Positions 44,070 to 54,090 of a DNA stretch of 64,000 nt are shown in pieces. Both the position numbers and the translations under genes were made by a program. The number at the start of each line of letters is the position of its first letter. The first letter of the stretch is position 1. The notes under the pieces were generated by a model. It searched no databases. It worked only from the letters and a program-made list of their open reading frames with translations, and was not told the origin of the DNA. This stretch comes from Glycomyces luteolus (GTDB lineage Bacteria; Actinomycetota; Actinomycetes; Mycobacteriales; Micromonosporaceae), in NCBI RefSeq assembly GCF_027622875.1, contig NZ_JAPZVP010000011.1, positions 62,001 to 126,000 on the forward strand, in the 5' to 3' direction.

Positions 44070-44249
44070 GCGTCTGAGACGCGCCCACGGCGATCGCGGT
44101 TCCCGCCACTCCGGCATTTGAGCCGATCGGATCATCGGCTGCGCAATTCGAGTCAAATGCGAGTACGCTCCTTGACTCCGGTCCGAACCCGTGCATAGCA
44201 TCAGTCCCGCAAGGGAAATGCTCTGAAATCCACCTGATTGGACGAAGAC

Positions 44250-46691
44250 GTGCCTGATCGAGCATCCGGCACTGCCGGCAGTCTCCGCCCGCTTCGGCTG
44301 CGGGCGCTGATGACGCAGGAGGAGCTCGCCTCGAAAGCGGGCGTGGGGATCCGAACGATCCGCGACATCGAGTCCGGAAAAGTGCGCCCCCAGCCGCGGA
44401 CCTTGCGCCTGCTCATCGAGGCGCTGGGGCTGGACGAGGGGGATCGGGCGCTGCTCACCGCGTCCCCGGGCCGGACCGCGGCGGCGGCTCGCGAGCTGCC
44501 GCACGCGCTCGCCGGTTTCGCGGGCCGGGAAGCGCACTTGGACGCGATCGTGACCGCGGCGGGCGACGGCGCCGCAGTCGTCGCGGTGCACGGCATGGCA
44601 GGCGTAGGGAAGACCTCGCTCGTAGTGCAGGCCGCCCACGCACTCGCTCCTCGGTACCCCGACGGGCAGCTCTTCGTCGACCTCCACGGCTTCACATGCG
44701 CCCCAGGGCCGCGCCCGGGCCCGGCGTCGATGCTGACGCGCCTGCTGCGCCGCCTCGGCGCGCACGAGCGAGACCTCCCCGAAGCGATCGACGAACTCAC
44801 CGCGCGCTACCGCAGCGCCGTCGCCGACCGCCGTGTGCTCCTGGTGCTCGACAACGCCGCGAACGCGGAGCAGGTGGAGGCACTGCTGCCGGGGACGCCG
44901 GGCAGCCTCGTGCTGGCGACCAGCCGCCGCGATCTGTCCGTCCTGTCCGGCGCCTACTCGGTACCGCTCGAACCGCCGCCCATGCGCGAGGCCGTGGCGA
45001 TGCTCGGCGCCGGAATCGACCGGATCACCGAGGAGGAGGCCGCCGCGATCGCGGAGCGCTGCGGGCGCCTGCCGCTGGCCATCGGTCTGGCGGCGGCCCG
45101 CCTGCGCAGCCGCCCCCTCTGGCGGGCCGCGGACCTGCTGGCGCGGCTCGACCACGAGGACCGGCTGTTCAGCGAACTCGACATGGGCCACCGCGGTGTC
45201 GCCGCGGCGCTGCGCGCCTCGTACCTCGAACTCGACCCAAACCATCAGCGCCTGCTCCGCCGCCTCGGCCTGCTCCCCGGCGACGACCTGGACGTCCACG
45301 CGGCCGCCGCGCTGTGCGGGGACGACGAGGAGCGCGCTTCGGCGATGCTGGAGTCTCTTGTGGACATCCACCTGTTGGAGACCCGTACACCCGGGCGGTA
45401 CCGGCTGCACGACCTGGTGCGGCTCTTCGCAAGCCGACTCGCCAAGCTGGAGGACACCAAAGCCGAACTGGACGCGGCCTCCGTCCGGCTGCTCGGCGTC
45501 TACCTGCACTTCGCCTACCAGGCCGCGGCGAAGCTGCATCCGAACAAGCGCCGATTCACCGAAGGCGCGGCCGCGCACGACACGGGCCTCTCCGGCTTCG
45601 CGGACCAGGCAGGCGCGCTCTCCTGGTTCCAGGCAGAGCGCAGCAACCTGGAGGCCGCCGTCACCGCCGCGGCACACGCGGGGCGAAACGAGCAGGCCTG
45701 GTACCTGGCCGCGGCGTTCAACGCGTTCTTCGTGCACGACTCCGACATCGGCCCGCACGCCACGGTCAACCGGATCGCGCTCGACATCGCCCGTCGCACC
45801 GGGGACGGCCGAAAGGAAGCGTTCACGCTCGGAGACGCGGGGCGGCAGCTGCTGGCGGCCGGCAGGCACCGCGAGGCGATCGACTGCCTCGAACGGTCCG
45901 TCGCGCTCAAGCTCGACCTGGGCGAGAACGGCGACGCGGCCCTGACACTTGCCAACATCGGCATCCTCTACCGGCGCTCCGGCCGGTTCGCCGAATCGGT
46001 GGCGGCGCACGAGACCGCGCTGGCTCAGGCGGAAGCGGCCTCGGACACGGCTGCTGCCGCGCTCATCAGGACGAACATGGTCGTCCCGCTGCTGCGGCTG
46101 GGGCGCTTCACAGAAGCCGAACTCCAGTTGGCGGAGGCGGAGCGGCGGCTCGACGCCGGGGACGACCACTACCGCATCCGCATCGAGGTCTTCCGCGGAG
46201 TGCTGGTCCGCGAGCGCGGCGCTCCAGCGGAAGCCGCGACCGTGCACGCCGAATGCCTTGAGGCCTACCAAGGTGAGAGCATCAAGGCCGATATCGTCGC
46301 AACGCTCATCGAACTGGCCGAGGACCTGCTGCGCCTCGGCCGCGTCGACGAGGCCACCGCCCACCTGGACCGGGCCGTCGAGAACGCGGTGAAGCTGGCC
46401 GACCCGTCGCTGGAGCGGACCGCCCGGAACGGCCTCGGCCGCGCGCTCACCGCCGCAGGCCGCCCCGAAGCCGCGATCAGCGAGCACGAGCGGGCGGCAA
46501 TGCTCGCCGAGTCCCATGAGGACACCTACGAACTCGCTCGGGCGCACCACGGCCTCGCCGAAGCCCAGCGGCTTCGAGGCGACCAGCCCGCGCTGCGGCG
46601 GCACCTGGCCCTCGCCGTCCGGGGGTACGCCCACTGCGGGGTGCCGGAGGCAGCGGTCGCCGAACAGCCGGACCTCGTCGCATTGGGGTGA
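44250..46691 (+). CDS. XRE-HTH / NB-ARC ATPase / TPR regulator
   Basis: The protein is 813 residues. An N-terminal Xre-type helix-turn-helix (RLRALMTQEELASKAGVGIRTIRDIESGKVRPQPRTLRLLIEAL, about 10-60) is followed by an NB-ARC/STAND ATPase with Walker A GMAGVGKTS (about 115) and Walker B RRVLLVLDNA (about 198-207). A winged-helix region follows and then TPRs over the C-terminal 350 residues (EAIDCLERSVALK, ESVAAHETALAQAE). These actinobacterial proteins act as ATP-dependent transcription switches, often of secondary metabolism. GTG 44250 with GAAG upstream is chosen over TTG 44238. The target is unknown. Confidence 0.85.
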   Translation: MPDRASGTAGSLRPLRLRALMTQEELASKAGVGIRTIRDIESGKVRPQPRTLRLLIEALGLDEGDRALLTASPGRTAAAARELPHALAGFAGREAHLDAIVTAAGDGAAVVAVHGMAGVGKTSLVVQAAHALAPRYPDGQLFVDLHGFTCAPGPRPGPASMLTRLLRRLGAHERDLPEAIDELTARYRSAVADRRVLLVLDNAANAEQVEALLPGTPGSLVLATSRRDLSVLSGAYSVPLEPPPMREAVAMLGAGIDRITEEEAAAIAERCGRLPLAIGLAAARLRSRPLWRAADLLARLDHEDRLFSELDMGHRGVAAALRASYLELDPNHQRLLRRLGLLPGDDLDVHAAAALCGDDEERASAMLESLVDIHLLETRTPGRYRLHDLVRLFASRLAKLEDTKAELDAASVRLLGVYLHFAYQAAAKLHPNKRRFTEGAAAHDTGLSGFADQAGALSWFQAERSNLEAAVTAAAHAGRNEQAWYLAAAFNAFFVHDSDIGPHATVNRIALDIARRTGDGRKEAFTLGDAGRQLLAAGRHREAIDCLERSVALKLDLGENGDAALTLANIGILYRRSGRFAESVAAHETALAQAEAASDTAAAALIRTNMVVPLLRLGRFTEAELQLAEAERRLDAGDDHYRIRIEVFRGVLVRERGAPAEAATVHAECLEAYQGESIKADIVATLIELAEDLLRLGRVDEATAHLDRAVENAVKLADPSLERTARNGLGRALTAAGRPEAAISEHERAAMLAESHEDTYELARAHHGLAEAQRLRGDQPALRRHLALAVRGYAHCGVPEAAVAEQPDLVALG

Positions 46692-48614: not shown

Positions 48615-49445
48615 CTAGAGCGCCTGCGGCTGTTTGAACTGGCGGTAGGGCTCGCACTCGCCGGTCGAGGAGTAGACGAGCTTGTAGCCGTTGCCGGAGA
48701 GCGTGTCGAACCCATCGCCGGGGCAGACCTCCTGGAAGCGTCCCCAGTCCCCACCGGAGTAGCCGACCAGGTAGTAGTCGGGCGCCAGGAGCGCCTCCTC
48801 GATCGCGGCGATATCGGCCTCGGGCAGGGCCGGGAGTCCGGCGGTGCCGGCGCCGTTCGGGAGTCCCTTGAAGACCTCGGGCGTGATCGTCGCGCCGGGC
48901 TCGAGGGTCTGCTCGATCCTCCAGAACGACTGCACGATGCCGCAGCCGACCTCGGGGTCGGTGATCTCGATCGGATCCCCGAAGATGATGTCGAAACCGT
49001 TGTCGCAGATGACGGACCCGTTGTTCCAACCGGTGACGAGGAAGAACGTCGGCGTGCTGAGCGGCGCGGTGACGCCGGCGACCGGTGCGAGCTCGATCGC
49101 GCGGCCCTCGGTCCGGTTCACCATCTCCACGTTGGTATCGACACCCAAGTACAGCGAGGCCTCCCCGGGCTTGTCGGCGACCGCGTCCTGGACGACCTCG
49201 GTGACGTCGTGGTCGATGACGAAGTCGAACTGGTAGCCGTCGATGTCGGTGACCGTGACGGTCTCGGAGAACGTGGCGAGCGCAGCAGGTTCGGGCGGAG
49301 GGGCGGAGGACTCTGCGGCCGTGGACGACTCGGCTTCGACCGGGCTCGCGGACTCGATCTGGCCGGGGGGATGGGAGGTGGAGCAGGCGGCCAGGAGGGC
49401 AGCGGAGAGCAGGACGGGCATGGGCAGGAGCCATCGGCGTGGCAT
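48615..49445 (-). CDS. Lipoprotein of unknown function
   Basis: The protein is 276 residues. The signal LLPMPVLLSAALLAAC ends in a clear lipobox, then a Ser/Glu/Ala/Pro linker (about 22-58) leads to a beta-rich domain with four or more Cys in two pairs (VICDNGFD, VGCGIVQSF, EVCPGDGF, GECEPYRQ). No family is recognised. It lies 93 bases downstream of the protease-STAND gene on the same strand and could be co-transcribed, but nothing shows a shared function. Confidence 0.7.
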   Translation of the reverse strand: MPRRWLLPMPVLLSAALLAACSTSHPPGQIESASPVEAESSTAAESSAPPPEPAALATFSETVTVTDIDGYQFDFVIDHDVTEVVQDAVADKPGEASLYLGVDTNVEMVNRTEGRAIELAPVAGVTAPLSTPTFFLVTGWNNGSVICDNGFDIIFGDPIEITDPEVGCGIVQSFWRIEQTLEPGATITPEVFKGLPNGAGTAGLPALPEADIAAIEEALLAPDYYLVGYSGGDWGRFQEVCPGDGFDTLSGNGYKLVYSSTGECEPYRQFKQPQAL

Positions 49446-49538: not shown

Positions 49539-52500
49539 TCAGACTTTGTAGAGGATCGATGTCGCGGCCGCAACGCCTTCGATATCGCTGGGCAGCAATG
49601 AGTCGAAGTACTGGAAGTAGACGGTGCCGCCCTCTCGGTGCTGCAGTGAGATCAAGCTGCCCTCGGCGCATCGGCTGTCAGGGTCGTCGGTGATGGTCTG
49701 CTCGAGGACCAGCGTCGCCTCCTCCGCGTCGATCGATTCCATGGTGAGGGTGCCGCTGCAGCCGAGTCCCGGGTAGCGGATGGTGCCGACCTCCCCTTCG
49801 GCATACTCGCCGAGGCTGAGGTCGACCTCGTATGCCGTCGCGGCGTCGGGATCGAAGACTTCGCCGTGCCAGTCGCCGGGGTACGGGGCGTAGATCTCCG
49901 CGTTCGTGGGCGGAACGGCGGCCGCGGATTCGGCGCTTGCGACTTCCGGGTCTATCAGAGCGAGGCAGTAGAAGACGTCTTGATCGGTCTCTGGCCGTAC
50001 CCGGCGGTCGACTCCTGTGGCGGAGCAGATGTTGCTGCCGTCGTCGTCGTCGATGCCGACGATCTCGTAGTCGTCCGCCGCCGCGTCAGCGCATTCGATG
50101 AACTCGTGGGAGTCCTCACCGACGCGGACGCAGTCGCCGACGCCCGGCAGCGCGTTGTATCGAACGATCGCGATGCCGACGGCGGCGGCGATGACCGCGA
50201 TGCCCGCTGCCGCGGCGAGATACCGGCGGTTCTTGGTCTTCTTGGTGGATCGCATCAGACCGTGCAGGGCCGACTGCGCCTGCCCGCTCAGACCGGGGGC
50301 GGCCGCCCCCGGCGCGTGCCGTGATGCTCGGTCGAGCATCACCGCATGCTGCAGGCCCGCGCCCTTGTATTCGCCGGACGCGGCCTTGGCCAGTTCGGCA
50401 AGCATGCCGGCGTCGCCGAAGTAGGGCTCTCGCAATCGCGAGTACGGCGGTGCACCGGCGTTGAGCTCGAGCACCGCGGCCGGGCCGCGTACCGTGCGAT
50501 CCGAGGTCAGGGACGTCTGGAGTCTGGCGGCCGCGTTGAAGGACTCGACCGCCGCGGTGCGGTTGTTCGCGCACCACTGGGCTTGCGCGAGCTTTTCGTG
50601 GGCCTCCGCGAGTTCGACGCGACGCTCGATCTCCGAGCCTTCGCGGGCGTCGATGTCGTTGCTGACGCGCTTGAACCACCTGATGGCGGCCTCTCGGCTC
50701 CCGTTGGTCCACAGTGCGACGGCGAGGTCTTTCATGATCTGGATGTGCTCTGGCGGTTTGACGCCGACCAGCGGCGGCTGCTCGATGTTGAGGGACCTGA
50801 CGGCCTCGTGCAGGAGTTCCGCGGCCAGCACGGTTTCGCGCAGGCGCCAGACATGAAGCGCCAGCATCTCGAGTTCGGAACCGTATTCGGGCAGAAACTC
50901 CTTGCGGGACTCCGCAATCAGACGGCGCAGGCCACAGAACGCACGAATCTGGTCTACTTCGGAGAGGTCTCCTACGGTCGTCTTTGCGAGGAACTGGGCG
51001 GACTTGACACGTGCGACGATCTCGCGGAGCGTCGAGCCGGCGATGTTCGGGTAGTCGAGGCGGAGACGGACGGCGTGGCGGACCGCGGTGAAGCCGTCCG
51101 CTTTGCGGCCCCGGAGCATGCTCTGCTCGGCGAATGCGTCGAGGAGCTCCAGGTATCCGTTGCAGAGGACGGCGAAGTGCTCATCTGCTCCGTGCTCCCT
51201 GACGCCGTCGGTCAACCGCGTCGCGAGTTCCGCGAAATCGCCGGACGCCGCCATCGCGGTGAAGCGTTCCAGCCCCCAACCGATGGGGCGCGATGCGGTG
51301 ACGCTCTCTCGATCGCGTCCCGCGAGTTCCGCGGTGATCAGTTCCAGCGCGCGTTCAGGTTCGTCCGTCCGGAGGAACCCGTGGAATACGGCGTCGACGT
51401 GCTCCCCGTACTGCGGGTACGGATCGAGGTCGCCGGACCCGTTGATCCACGAGACCTGCTGGAGCGCGGTCCGCGCGGGGAGCCACGCTTCCTCGTCGAT
51501 CAGGGTTTCGACGAGCGATCGCAGGCCGGCGCAGAGCGCGGCCTCGTCACCGGCATTGCGGTGGTGCTGGTTCGCGAGCTCGAGGAGGGCGCGCTTGAGA
51601 TCGGCGAGCTCGGGGCGGTCGAGTCCTTGCGGCAGGGCGGTCTTCGCGATGACCCTGACCGCGGTCGCGTCGTCGTGGAGTTCCCGGAGTTGGGCGGTGA
51701 GGAGTTGCGCGACGGTCAGATCGTCGTGGCGCACGGCTTCGTCGACGGCCGTCTCGATCAGCTTGGGCAGGCTCTGGCCCAGCACTTCCGAGATCGAGCC
51801 GAAGGACTCGCCTCTGCGGGTCAGCGTCTCGAAGGTCAGGCGCAGGGCCTTCTGGAAGTGCGCTCGCGCATGCGGGTAGTGGTCGCGGGTGAGCGACAGG
51901 ATGTGGAGCATCCTGGTGAAGTGCCGGTCCTCGAGCGGGAACTCGAAGAGGTCTTCGAGGATCTGGTCGAGGTCCTCGACGCTGACCAGGAGGTGCTCGG
52001 AGACCAGGTCGGGCTCGATGGGGGCCGCGCGCATCGGCGCCATCGCTTCGAGCGGGCCGAAGCCGGGGTAGAGGCGGATGACCGCGGCGGCGGCTTCGCG
52101 GCGTGCGATGTTGTCCTGATCGGACCATAGGCTCGACGCCTTGAGGAAGTCCTGGGCCTGTTTGGCGGTGGGTTCGGTCAGCGTCATGATCGCGACCGCG
52201 TGCAGGGCCTGCGAGCTCTGGTCGGGGCGGTGGCCCGCCGTGACAGTCAGGTTCGGTTCGCCCGTCCAGCGCATGGTCCGCTCGCGTTGGACGAGGTAGT
52301 CGAGCAGTTCGTTCTGGAGCCGGCCGGCGGGGGCGCCATAGGGCAGGTTGGATTCCCGGGCGGCGAGGAGCGCGGCTATGTGGACCAGGAGCGGCGATTC
52401 GAACCGCTGGTCCAGTATCGGGAAGAAGTGTTCCGCCGGGGGGCGCCCCTCGGCGTCGGCCGGGAGGAACTGCCGGTACGCCGCGGCGAAATGCAAGCGG

Positions 52501-53726
52501 CGCATGGTGTCGTCGAAGGCCTTCTCCGAGAGCCGGGTCTCCTTCTGAATGCGCATCTGGCGGGCCATGCCGGCGTTGACCTGTTCGAGCCAGTTCGCGG
52601 TCGAACGCGAGACCAGGAGGATCCGGACGGAATGGGCCACACGGGAACCCAGTGCGTCGAGGCGCGAGAGGAGCCGCGCGACCTTGGACGCGATCGTCGG
52701 GCGCTCGACGTAGTCGAACACGATGAGCGTCGGACGGCGGGGCACGTACCCGTCCCAATCGGCGAGCTCGTCCTCCCGGGCGAACCCGGCCTCCCAGCCT
52801 TTCGACGCGGCCTGGAGGCGGCAGCACAGCTCGGACGCGAGCCGGGTCTTCCCCGCACCGCCTCGGCCCGTGAGGATGCGGACGGAGACATCGCTCCCGG
52901 CGTCGTCGGGGCGGTCGCACCAAGCCTCGAAATCCGCGAGGGCCTCGCCGTGGCTCTCCTCGATGAAGTCGACCTGCCCGTACCGCGCCGTGATGAGCTT
53001 GAAGTCGGTCTCCTCGCCGAGCTGCTCGACCGCGGGCTTGATGACGGGATGGTCGGCGGAGACGGACCGCAGTCGGGGTGTGCCCAGGTGGGCGCGGATG
53101 CCGGGCTCTCGCAGGATGACCGAAGCGGGCACGATGCCGAACCGGCCGACCCATTTGGTCGCGACTGAGGCGACGACGCCGAGTAGCAGCCCCGCCTCGT
53201 CGCGGACGACGGCGCCGGAGAGGCCCTGCCAGTCCTGCAGGGCCGTCGGCTGCGGCGATGTCACATTGAGCACCATCCGGTTCAAGGACATGCCTTCACC
53301 GGGCGTGAAGGTCCCTTGGACGGCGGTGAGGTGATACGAGAGGTCGTCCTCCATGGACGCCCGCGGGAACCCGATGCAGGACACCGGCACGGCCCCGATG
53401 AACCCGTCGTATTCCGCCCACACGGGCGGGGGACCGAACGCGGACCGGAGGCCCTCCACGCGGAGCAAGGCGACATCGGGTGCCTCGGCGGACCGCTCAT
53501 TCGATGGCGGCCAGAGCACTTCTGCCACCCGCCAGCCGTCGTCATCGGAAGCGCGCTTCACAAGGGGAGGCTGATCGCCGAGGAGGCCGTGGGCGGAGGT
53601 GATCACCAATTCGTCGGTGAGGATGCATCCCGACTGCGTTCGCTCCCGCCGCTCATTGCCGGAACGGTAGGGGATCTTGATCTCGACGATGCGGACGGCC
53701 TCGTCGCTGAGGTTCAGATCGGGCAT
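49539..53726 (-). CDS. Trypsin-like protease / STAND NTPase / helical repeat / TM / extracellular region protein
   Basis: The protein is 1395 residues. Residues 1-210 are a trypsin-fold protease with an apparently intact triad: H46 in VITSAHG, D84 in PDVALLRV and S170 in QGLSGAVV. Residues about 240-480 are a STAND-type P-loop NTPase with Walker A GRGGAGKTR (287-295) and Walker B TLIVFDYVE (333-341). Residues about 480-1150 are a long alpha-helical, TPR-like region. One membrane segment follows (YLAAAAGIAVIAAAVGIAIV, about 1168-1187). About 204 residues lie beyond it and by topology are outside the cell: a Cys-containing LppU-like part (GDCVRV…FYCLAL) and a beta domain (GDWHGEVF…GTIRYPGLGCSGTLTM) like those on actinobacterial sensor kinases. 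It follows a Trypco2 gene by 19 bases. Function inferred: a conflict or stress switch. Confidence 0.85.
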   Translation of the reverse strand: MPDLNLSDEAVRIVEIKIPYRSGNERRERTQSGCILTDELVITSAHGLLGDQPPLVKRASDDDGWRVAEVLWPPSNERSAEAPDVALLRVEGLRSAFGPPPVWAEYDGFIGAVPVSCIGFPRASMEDDLSYHLTAVQGTFTPGEGMSLNRMVLNVTSPQPTALQDWQGLSGAVVRDEAGLLLGVVASVATKWVGRFGIVPASVILREPGIRAHLGTPRLRSVSADHPVIKPAVEQLGEETDFKLITARYGQVDFIEESHGEALADFEAWCDRPDDAGSDVSVRILTGRGGAGKTRLASELCCRLQAASKGWEAGFAREDELADWDGYVPRRPTLIVFDYVERPTIASKVARLLSRLDALGSRVAHSVRILLVSRSTANWLEQVNAGMARQMRIQKETRLSEKAFDDTMRRLHFAAAYRQFLPADAEGRPPAEHFFPILDQRFESPLLVHIAALLAARESNLPYGAPAGRLQNELLDYLVQRERTMRWTGEPNLTVTAGHRPDQSSQALHAVAIMTLTEPTAKQAQDFLKASSLWSDQDNIARREAAAAVIRLYPGFGPLEAMAPMRAAPIEPDLVSEHLLVSVEDLDQILEDLFEFPLEDRHFTRMLHILSLTRDHYPHARAHFQKALRLTFETLTRRGESFGSISEVLGQSLPKLIETAVDEAVRHDDLTVAQLLTAQLRELHDDATAVRVIAKTALPQGLDRPELADLKRALLELANQHHRNAGDEAALCAGLRSLVETLIDEEAWLPARTALQQVSWINGSGDLDPYPQYGEHVDAVFHGFLRTDEPERALELITAELAGRDRESVTASRPIGWGLERFTAMAASGDFAELATRLTDGVREHGADEHFAVLCNGYLELLDAFAEQSMLRGRKADGFTAVRHAVRLRLDYPNIAGSTLREIVARVKSAQFLAKTTVGDLSEVDQIRAFCGLRRLIAESRKEFLPEYGSELEMLALHVWRLRETVLAAELLHEAVRSLNIEQPPLVGVKPPEHIQIMKDLAVALWTNGSREAAIRWFKRVSNDIDAREGSEIERRVELAEAHEKLAQAQWCANNRTAAVESFNAAARLQTSLTSDRTVRGPAAVLELNAGAPPYSRLREPYFGDAGMLAELAKAASGEYKGAGLQHAVMLDRASRHAPGAAAPGLSGQAQSALHGLMRSTKKTKNRRYLAAAAGIAVIAAAVGIAIVRYNALPGVGDCVRVGEDSHEFIECADAAADDYEIVGIDDDDGSNICSATGVDRRVRPETDQDVFYCLALIDPEVASAESAAAVPPTNAEIYAPYPGDWHGEVFDPDAATAYEVDLSLGEYAEGEVGTIRYPGLGCSGTLTMESIDAEEATLVLEQTITDDPDSRCAEGSLISLQHREGGTVYFQYFDSLLPSDIEGVAAATSILYKV

Positions 53727-53745
53727 GGTGTTCCGCCCGGTCCGT

Positions 53746-54090
53746 TCAGTTGTTCAAAGGATCGTGCGTGACGATTCGCCTTTCGGGCGGTGCCGCGCCG
53801 TCCGCCGCCAATGCCAGTGACGCGGTCGTGCCGTCGCCCTTCCTTGTCATCGGCGCCAGCGTGAGACGCAGGCGATGGGTGTTCGCGCTGTTCTTCGAAC
53901 CGTTGGCCCCCAGGTTGACGAACCATGCCGCGAAGGTCCCGTTCGCGCCGCGGGACGAGCCCGCTTGGACGGTGAGTTCGAGTTCGAGATCGCGGATTTC
54001 GAAGACCAGTTCCTCGTCCTGATCGGCAATCGCCTTCTTGAGTTCTTCGCGCAAGCCGGCAATGGCCGAGCCCAAAGGGATTTGTTCCAT
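53746..54090 (-). CDS. Trypco2 (trypsin-co-occurring domain 2) protein
   Basis: The protein is 114 residues. It has the Trypco2 layout: IPLGSAIAGLREELKKAIADQDEELVFEIRDLELELTVQA, a short loop, then AWFVNLGANGSKNSANTHRLRLTLAPM. The family is known from its co-occurrence with trypsin-STAND genes, and here the next gene is exactly such a protein. Its biochemical role is unknown; it may be a partner or inhibitor of the protease switch. ATG 54090 fits the domain start; the longer open frame upstream is not coding-like. TAATAT on the minus strand at 54185-54190 is a possible -10. Confidence 0.82.
   Translation of the reverse strand: MEQIPLGSAIAGLREELKKAIADQDEELVFEIRDLELELTVQAGSSRGANGTFAAWFVNLGANGSKNSANTHRLRLTLAPMTRKGDGTTASLALAADGAAPPERRIVTHDPLNN

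Follow-up and report, generated by a model that had tools for sequence, protein, structure and literature searches.

A Trypco2 gene and a trypsin-STAND gene form a closely spaced pair

The window, i.e., the whole 64,000-nucleotide stretch of Glycomyces luteolus DNA that was analyzed (source genome size 5.7 Mb), carries on its minus strand a gene for a Trypco2 protein, followed after a gap of 19 nt by a gene for a large protein in which a trypsin-like domain is joined to a STAND NTPase module, helical repeats, a membrane segment and a C-terminal beta-barrel (Table 1). Both open reading frames had been proposed in a first-pass annotation of this DNA and were found, both on the minus strand, with the same positions and spacing. 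The smaller protein matches Pfam family PF19631 with an E-value of 1.2e-19 and 70.8 bits, above the curated cut-off of 24.2, and is therefore a member of the Trypco2 family, as annotated. The third-position GC content of the larger gene lies between 0.82 and 0.91 in all seven segments, including those covering the membrane segment and the tail, and is even across the junction. A PADLOC search gave no match.

Table 1. Positions of the gene pair and of the features of its two products in the window.
Feature	Position	Strand	Basis
Trypco2 gene, 114 aa	53746..54090	-	PF19631 match, residues 4-80
Trypsin-STAND-membrane-barrel gene, 1395 aa	49539..53726	-	Open reading frame and translation; third-position GC
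Trypsin-like domain, ~residues 13-205	53112..53690	-	Trypsin_2, family profile, model
Catalytic H46	53589-53591	-	Triad residue
Catalytic D84	53475-53477	-	Triad residue
Catalytic S170	53217-53219	-	Triad residue
STAND NTPase module, ~residues 241-640	51807..53006	-	nSTAND_NTPase5, motifs, model
P-loop, residues 286-296	52839-52871	-	GRGGAGKT
Helical (TPR-like) repeats, ~residues 641-1162	50241..51806	-	AlphaFold secondary structure; weak TPR_2
Basic flank ahead of membrane segment, residues 1158-1169	50220..50255	-	Charge count
Predicted transmembrane segment, residues 1170-1188	50163..50219	-	Hydropathy
LppU/SCO3897-like stretch, residues 1197-1256, four Cys	49959..50138	-	NF049863 match below cut-off
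Predicted eight-stranded beta-barrel, residues 1276-1395, Cys1323 and Cys1353	49542..49901	-	AlphaFold

The trypsin domain and the STAND module keep their motifs

The N-terminal region of the 1395-residue protein scores 27.5 bits against Pfam Trypsin_2, just under the cut-off of 27.6. The profile of A1, a core alignment of the trypsin-STAND family with 17 rows, matches the solved serine protease 3k6z (E 6.6e-9), and the AlphaFold model matches the Rv3671c protease (3k6y; E 7.2e-7, target TM 0.63) as well as Deg/HtrA proteases. The H46/D84/S170 triad named in the first-pass annotation is present, and its three residues are aligned in 15 of the 17 rows of A1, one of which (L050) has an N-terminal half that looks non-homologous; the two other rows (L014 and L015) show a different N-terminus where the trypsin domain would be. 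In a wider set, in which one protein may give more than one row, the full triad was found in 50 of 60 aligned rows, while six carry another residue and four are gapped. The expectation that the triad would not be disrupted in homologues thus holds for all closest relatives with a trypsin domain, but not for some of the wider ones. Judged from its sequence, the domain keeps the intact triad of active trypsin-fold proteases, and protease activity is predicted.

The P-loop (GRGGAGKT), likewise as annotated, and the Walker B motif (VFDY) are kept in all 17 rows of A1, and GK[ST] together with D338 was found in 56 of 61 rows of the wider set, the remaining five being gapped there. The Pfam nSTAND_NTPase5 match reaches 24.6 bits, under the cut-off of 34. 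An AlphaFold model of residues 1-1165, built from 16 sequences (mean pLDDT 78, pTM 0.56), matches a STAND-TPR protein (6mfv; E 6.6e-7) with a low target TM of 0.25, and EfAvs5 (9jap; E 4.5e-6) with a low target TM of 0.19. The helices of this model span residues ~640-1162, in agreement with the helical repeats proposed earlier, and a weak Pfam TPR_2 match covers residues 1040-1070. The P-loop and Walker B motif within a fold modeled as STAND-type place the protein among the STAND NTPases, with a predicted use of nucleotide. With 6mfv and 9jap it shares, at low TM, the STAND module and the helical repeats, and with Avs5 also the presence of an N-terminal effector; it differs from both in its trypsin effector, its membrane segment and a barrel that is probably outside the cell. 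Avs proteins are regarded as soluble.

A membrane segment precedes a tail that ends in a two-cysteine barrel

Residues 1170-1188 have a mean Kyte-Doolittle hydropathy of 2.62 over 19 residues, compared with a best value of 1.45 elsewhere in the chain. The 30 residues before this segment contain six K+R and no D+E, and the 30 residues after it two K+R and seven D+E, a charge bias that points to an N-terminus inside the cell. A chance hydrophobic stretch was rejected on hydropathy and charged flanks, and the membrane segment annotated near residues 1168-1187 stands with slightly shifted borders. The tail beyond it, previously given as about 200 residues, comprises 207 and contains six of the 15 cysteines of the protein (Cys1199, 1212, 1234, 1254, 1323 and 1353).

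The last 127 residues were modeled by AlphaFold as eight strands with block means of 70-97 pLDDT (mean ~92), and the first 80 residues of the tail with low pLDDT values of 44-61 (44-53 in the LppU-like stretch). This stretch matches NCBIfam NF049863 (LppU/SCO3897) with 20.3 bits and an E-value of 5.9e-4, under the cut-off of 25, and we refer to it as LppU-like rather than assign it to the family. A joint alignment of the LppU-like stretch and the barrel (A3) was discarded, as the LppU rows landed on the barrel. The structure was run on the barrel alignment A2, which leaves the LppU-like stretch without alignment support. A literature search on SCO3897 found nothing.

Cys1323 and Cys1353 are invariant in all 21 rows of the barrel alignment. 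Only two PDB matches of the barrel model had an E-value of at most 0.001, both of them nitrobindin mutants with rmsd values of 8.7-9.0 (best E 6.8e-4, rmsd 9.0). The barrel also resembles Cap15 (7n34; E 8.6e-3, target TM 0.61), designed barrels (6czi; target TM 0.70), GID4 and lipocalin-like proteins, and among the 50 matches listed the query-normalised TM was at most 0.40. If the model is right, the nearest folds of the barrel are binders of small ligands or peptides.

The barrel is a module of actinobacterial membrane proteins

A single-sequence search with residues 1168-1395 matched 25 of 394 class genomes, and the barrel profile matched 6 of 121 relatives, 23 of 397 order genomes and 13 of 396 phylum genomes, the window genome being included in each count; in the order and phylum searches ten candidates were scored per genome. 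The five other matching relatives all lie outside the genus, which is represented by 22 genomes in the collection. Open reading frames sharing a 40-residue stretch were counted as one group, which merges close orthologues. With all loci pooled, the barrel occurred in 55 such groups, 46 of which have a hydrophobic segment (at least 1.6) in the 160 residues preceding the first barrel, and 12 of which have a kinase motif. Exactly two cysteines were found in each of the 59 barrel domains. Among the nine groups that have no segment at this place, five start with a lipoprotein-like signal as judged by eye (L364, L359, L376, L369 and L357), one (L393) is a kinase in which a hydrophobic stretch follows the kinase domain, and the other three (L037, L394 and L398) are long open reading frames with an uncertain true start. 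The barrel module is accordingly usual in membrane and lipoprotein-like proteins.

The kinase domain was confirmed by Pfam in L157, L162, L176, L393 and L397, and L164 and L352 combine a kinase motif, a membrane segment and the barrel. The Ser/Thr kinases L157, L162, L176, L397, L164 and L352 resemble the window protein in having one membrane segment and then the two-Cys barrel, and differ from it in having a kinase in place of the trypsin-STAND part. The first-pass annotation had likened the C-terminus to sensor modules of kinases and to Cys-rich lipoproteins, and this likeness is borne out for the barrel, which is common to actinobacterial membrane kinases and lipoprotein-like proteins. By profile and model, the barrel of the window protein is of the two-Cys type of these kinases, and export is predicted for it. 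Since 46 of the 55 groups have a membrane segment, 12 have kinase motifs and all have the two cysteines, the tail very probably lies outside. A single-pass topology with the enzyme and the switch inside and the barrel outside is highly probable and is the strongest claim we make.

Two further arrangements were seen among the barrel proteins. In L034 (2220-4625, plus strand), a Pfam Hsp70-like domain leads into a linker of low complexity, after which come a membrane segment and a two-Cys barrel, and L167, L377, L378, L385 and L386 carry tandem barrels with their own Cys pair in each copy.

Trypsin and STAND are joined to the barrel in one of the 55 groups, solely in the window protein, and among the relatives collected the full trypsin-STAND-membrane-barrel architecture is present in one genome only. 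This rarity, the existence of short stand-alone membrane-barrel proteins (L153, L156, L175 and others) and the lack of any other genome of the genus among the barrel matches would be expected if the STAND gene had recently been fused by chance with a small membrane-barrel or LppU-like gene, with a tail that is passive or has no receptor function. However, the gene is one continuous frame with an even third-position GC content, and the triad, the P-loop and the barrel cysteines are all intact. An internal start at the ATG of residue 1158, which would give a separate membrane-barrel protein, is also unlikely, as no ribosome site is visible there by eye. We regard such a chance fusion as improbable.

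Late membrane segments are rare and Trypco2 is frequent among trypsin-STANDs

In a search with the A1 profile at E 1e-3, 349 of 354 family genomes gave a match, a count that says little since many of the listed matches span the STAND part alone. At most three candidates were scored per genome, and 40 were fetched, better-scoring ones first and then those reaching the trypsin domain. Loci were picked by similarity of the core and not of the tail, and one locus collection kept 80 of 105 loci. Trypsin and STAND were combined in 55 groups among the fetched loci, with a complete 3' end in 51. Hydropathy thresholds were 1.6 for barrels, 1.9 for nSTAND1 proteins and 2.2 for trypsin-STANDs, and 1.6-2.2 (including 1.75 and 1.8) in other scans. 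A segment of at least 2.2 after the STAND module was found in 3 of the 51 groups, namely in the window protein, L320 and L326.

L320 (2151-6230, minus strand) and L326 (1539-5051, minus strand) share the core family and the late membrane segment with the window protein. Unlike the latter, they end in a low-complexity Pro-rich tail without a barrel, their catalytic Ser is changed to Ala, and Trypco2 was not found in the fetched flanks; they are possibly membrane-bound pseudoprotease STANDs.

The core of the family is conserved while the C-termini differ. L002, a paralogue in the same genome that has no membrane segment, is homologous over residues 4-1064 of the window protein, and L031 and L032 align with it up to residue ~744. 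The tails of the relatives read as repeats, and L002 and L014 give weak matches to TPR. As the homology to L002 ends at residue 1064, the membrane segment and the tail occupy the place of the last repeats of the paralogue. The retention of ~500 residues of repeats and the reach of the paralogue homology up to residue 1064 would be in line with a sensor that is the cytoplasmic repeat array, as in the relatives, and with a membrane segment and outside module that serve merely as an anchor to the membrane or wall; the tails of L320 and L326, only Pro-rich and of low complexity, are anchor- or stalk-like as well. In contrast, the tail of the window protein ends in a confidently predicted barrel with conserved cysteines, whose nearest folds appear to bind small ligands or peptides, and the kinases carry this barrel in the sensor position. 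A role as an anchor only is possible but rather unlikely.

Trypco2 adjoins 33 of the 55 trypsin-STAND groups (31 upstream, 2 downstream, the latter being L329 and L336) vs. none of 60 STAND groups without trypsin. Fisher's test gives 2e-14 for this difference, a value that is uncorrected for kinship and partly confounded by taxonomy, many of the trypsin-less STANDs being from other phyla. These counts and the spacing of 19 nt in the window support the pairing of Trypco2 with a trypsin protein that had been proposed for this locus. In the other 22 groups Trypco2 was not found in the searched flanks. L002 was scored as having no Trypco2, yet one lies ~1.1 kb downstream, past the fetched end. In 23 genomes, 21 Trypco2 matches were obtained, six of which are not beside a STAND of the trypsin-STAND family; in G021, Trypco2 and the trypsin-STAND are on different contigs. 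No Trypco2 match was found in the genus genomes G001 and G012, whose best match has no trypsin domain, nor in four more of the 23 genomes. L014 and L015 have the STAND core of the family with another N-terminal domain in place of trypsin, and their genomes have no Trypco2 match.

Among the nSTAND1 loci L288-L304, 16 of 17 have a mid-chain hydrophobic segment (at least 1.9), including L299, the sole nSTAND1 protein whose Pfam boundaries were checked. In actinobacteria, STANDs that cross the membrane may be common.

Relation to known systems

Pairs of trypsin with Trypco1 or Trypco2 are described as NTP-dependent conflict systems in the accessible text of PMC7159879, alongside ternary systems of VMAP that have MoxR and vWA parts. 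As in these pairs, a Trypco2 protein identified by Pfam here lies beside a trypsin fold fused to an NTPase-type switch; the present locus differs from that description in being a two-gene unit with a STAND that has an intact P-loop, and in that a Pfam scan of nine neighbouring proteins, which covered the small open reading frames in part, found no MoxR, vWA or VMAP.

Extracellular domains behind membrane segments are described in PMC7159879 and PMC8195603 for iSTAND, EACC1, EACC2 and GAP1-N2 systems, and a periplasmic NACHT and lectin target is predicted in PMC10907252. L299 (genome G024) has trypsin, STAND, a strong membrane segment and then a C-terminal sensor-like domain, as does the window protein, but it belongs to the nSTAND1 clade, has WD40 instead of the barrel and lacks a long repeat region ahead of its membrane segment. 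Given the published systems, L299 and the 16 of 17 nSTAND1 loci, an outside or membrane part is not new in principle. The proposal of an undescribed variant stands insofar as none of the other relatives collected showed this architecture, and not for the outside part, which those papers already report for related systems and which L299 also has. The literature searched, which consisted of text accessible outside subscription journals and preprint servers, did not describe an outside barrel for any pair of trypsin-STAND and Trypco2.

A possible receptor that reads the cell exterior

Bacterial STAND receptors have mostly been studied as detectors of intracellular molecules. We consider it an even chance that the window protein is an NLR-like receptor that crosses the membrane once and has a dedicated partner in Trypco2, the outside barrel having taken the place of the last helical repeats. 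The trypsin domain, the STAND switch and the helical repeats would lie in the cytoplasm, with one membrane crossing and the N-terminus inside, and the outside part would consist of the LppU-like stretch and the barrel with its two cysteines. Close relatives have a TPR array without a membrane segment, the last part of which would here have been swapped for a membrane segment and a kinase-type outside module. A ligand or damage signal outside would act at the barrel and shift the repeats, the STAND module would exchange nucleotide and cluster beneath the membrane, and clustering would switch on the trypsin domain against a cytoplasmic target, while Trypco2 may dock on the trypsin domain or restrain it. 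We infer this flow of the signal, the nucleotide use, the clustering, the protease target and the role of Trypco2; a trigger role of the barrel is suggested by analogy with its use in kinases. The protease release proposed in the first-pass annotation found no support in the analysis, and clustering would be enough for activation.

As trypsin and tail are on one chain, the outside module could conversely be an output, with trypsin activation cutting or shedding the tail or signalling to the wall, and autoproteolysis has been proposed for EACC1, a related membrane-associated system, in the accessible text of PMC7159879. However, in the predicted topology the membrane would separate the trypsin domain from the tail, and the barrel kinases hold the module where receptors hold their sensors, which makes an output function very improbable.

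The more specific reading of an NLR-type receptor for the cell exterior, in which a ligand-binding barrel borrowed from kinases switches the STAND module and trypsin inside and exchange of the C-terminus shifts a modular immune core from sensing in the cytoplasm to sensing at the surface, is put forward tentatively, at somewhat less than an even chance. The architecture suggests that an alarm system usually read as internal was rewired to watch the cell surface, and signalling from outside, if true, would be of high interest. A discrete, swappable outside module on a trypsin-STAND would make the transmembrane driving of a STAND switch directly testable, and the exchange of the barrel with kinases points to chimeras that could readily be made. 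The association with trypsin-STANDs offers a concrete handle on the role of Trypco2.

Genomic neighbourhood

The neighbours of the pair include an FAD/berberine oxidase, a polysaccharide deacetylase, a response regulator with a histidine kinase, an NlpC/P60 protein and an HTH-NB-ARC-TPR regulator (44238-46691, plus strand), among others. The last is a second STAND-type protein, ~3 kb from the STAND gene.

An orphan gene for a lipoprotein-like protein of 276 residues (48615-49445, minus strand) starts 93 nt past the stop of the STAND gene. It was rejected as a third component of the system: besides itself it has matches in 2 of 61 genomes, one of them over only 41 residues. A 40-residue piece of this protein is 77% identical in G005 (L287).

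The FAD gene adjoining the pair has 82-92% protein identity in five relatives, and DNA homology stops at its 3' end. No STAND or Trypco2 match (1e-6) was found beside the FAD gene of these relatives in the 13-14 kb fetched. The five share little around this gene, although two share a further 2.5 kb, and since they also differ among themselves, the comparison shows a variable locus rather than a clean insertion site. The idea that the pair is kept together in variable loci of neighbouring genomes is therefore supported as to the variable surroundings of the FAD gene in the five relatives, but the pair was not found there. In G021 (L286, G021:C2:78000-97900), a partial FAD-gene match lies ~7 kb from a trypsin-STAND gene of its own that encodes no membrane segment, and the window locus and this trypsin-STAND locus may share a location.
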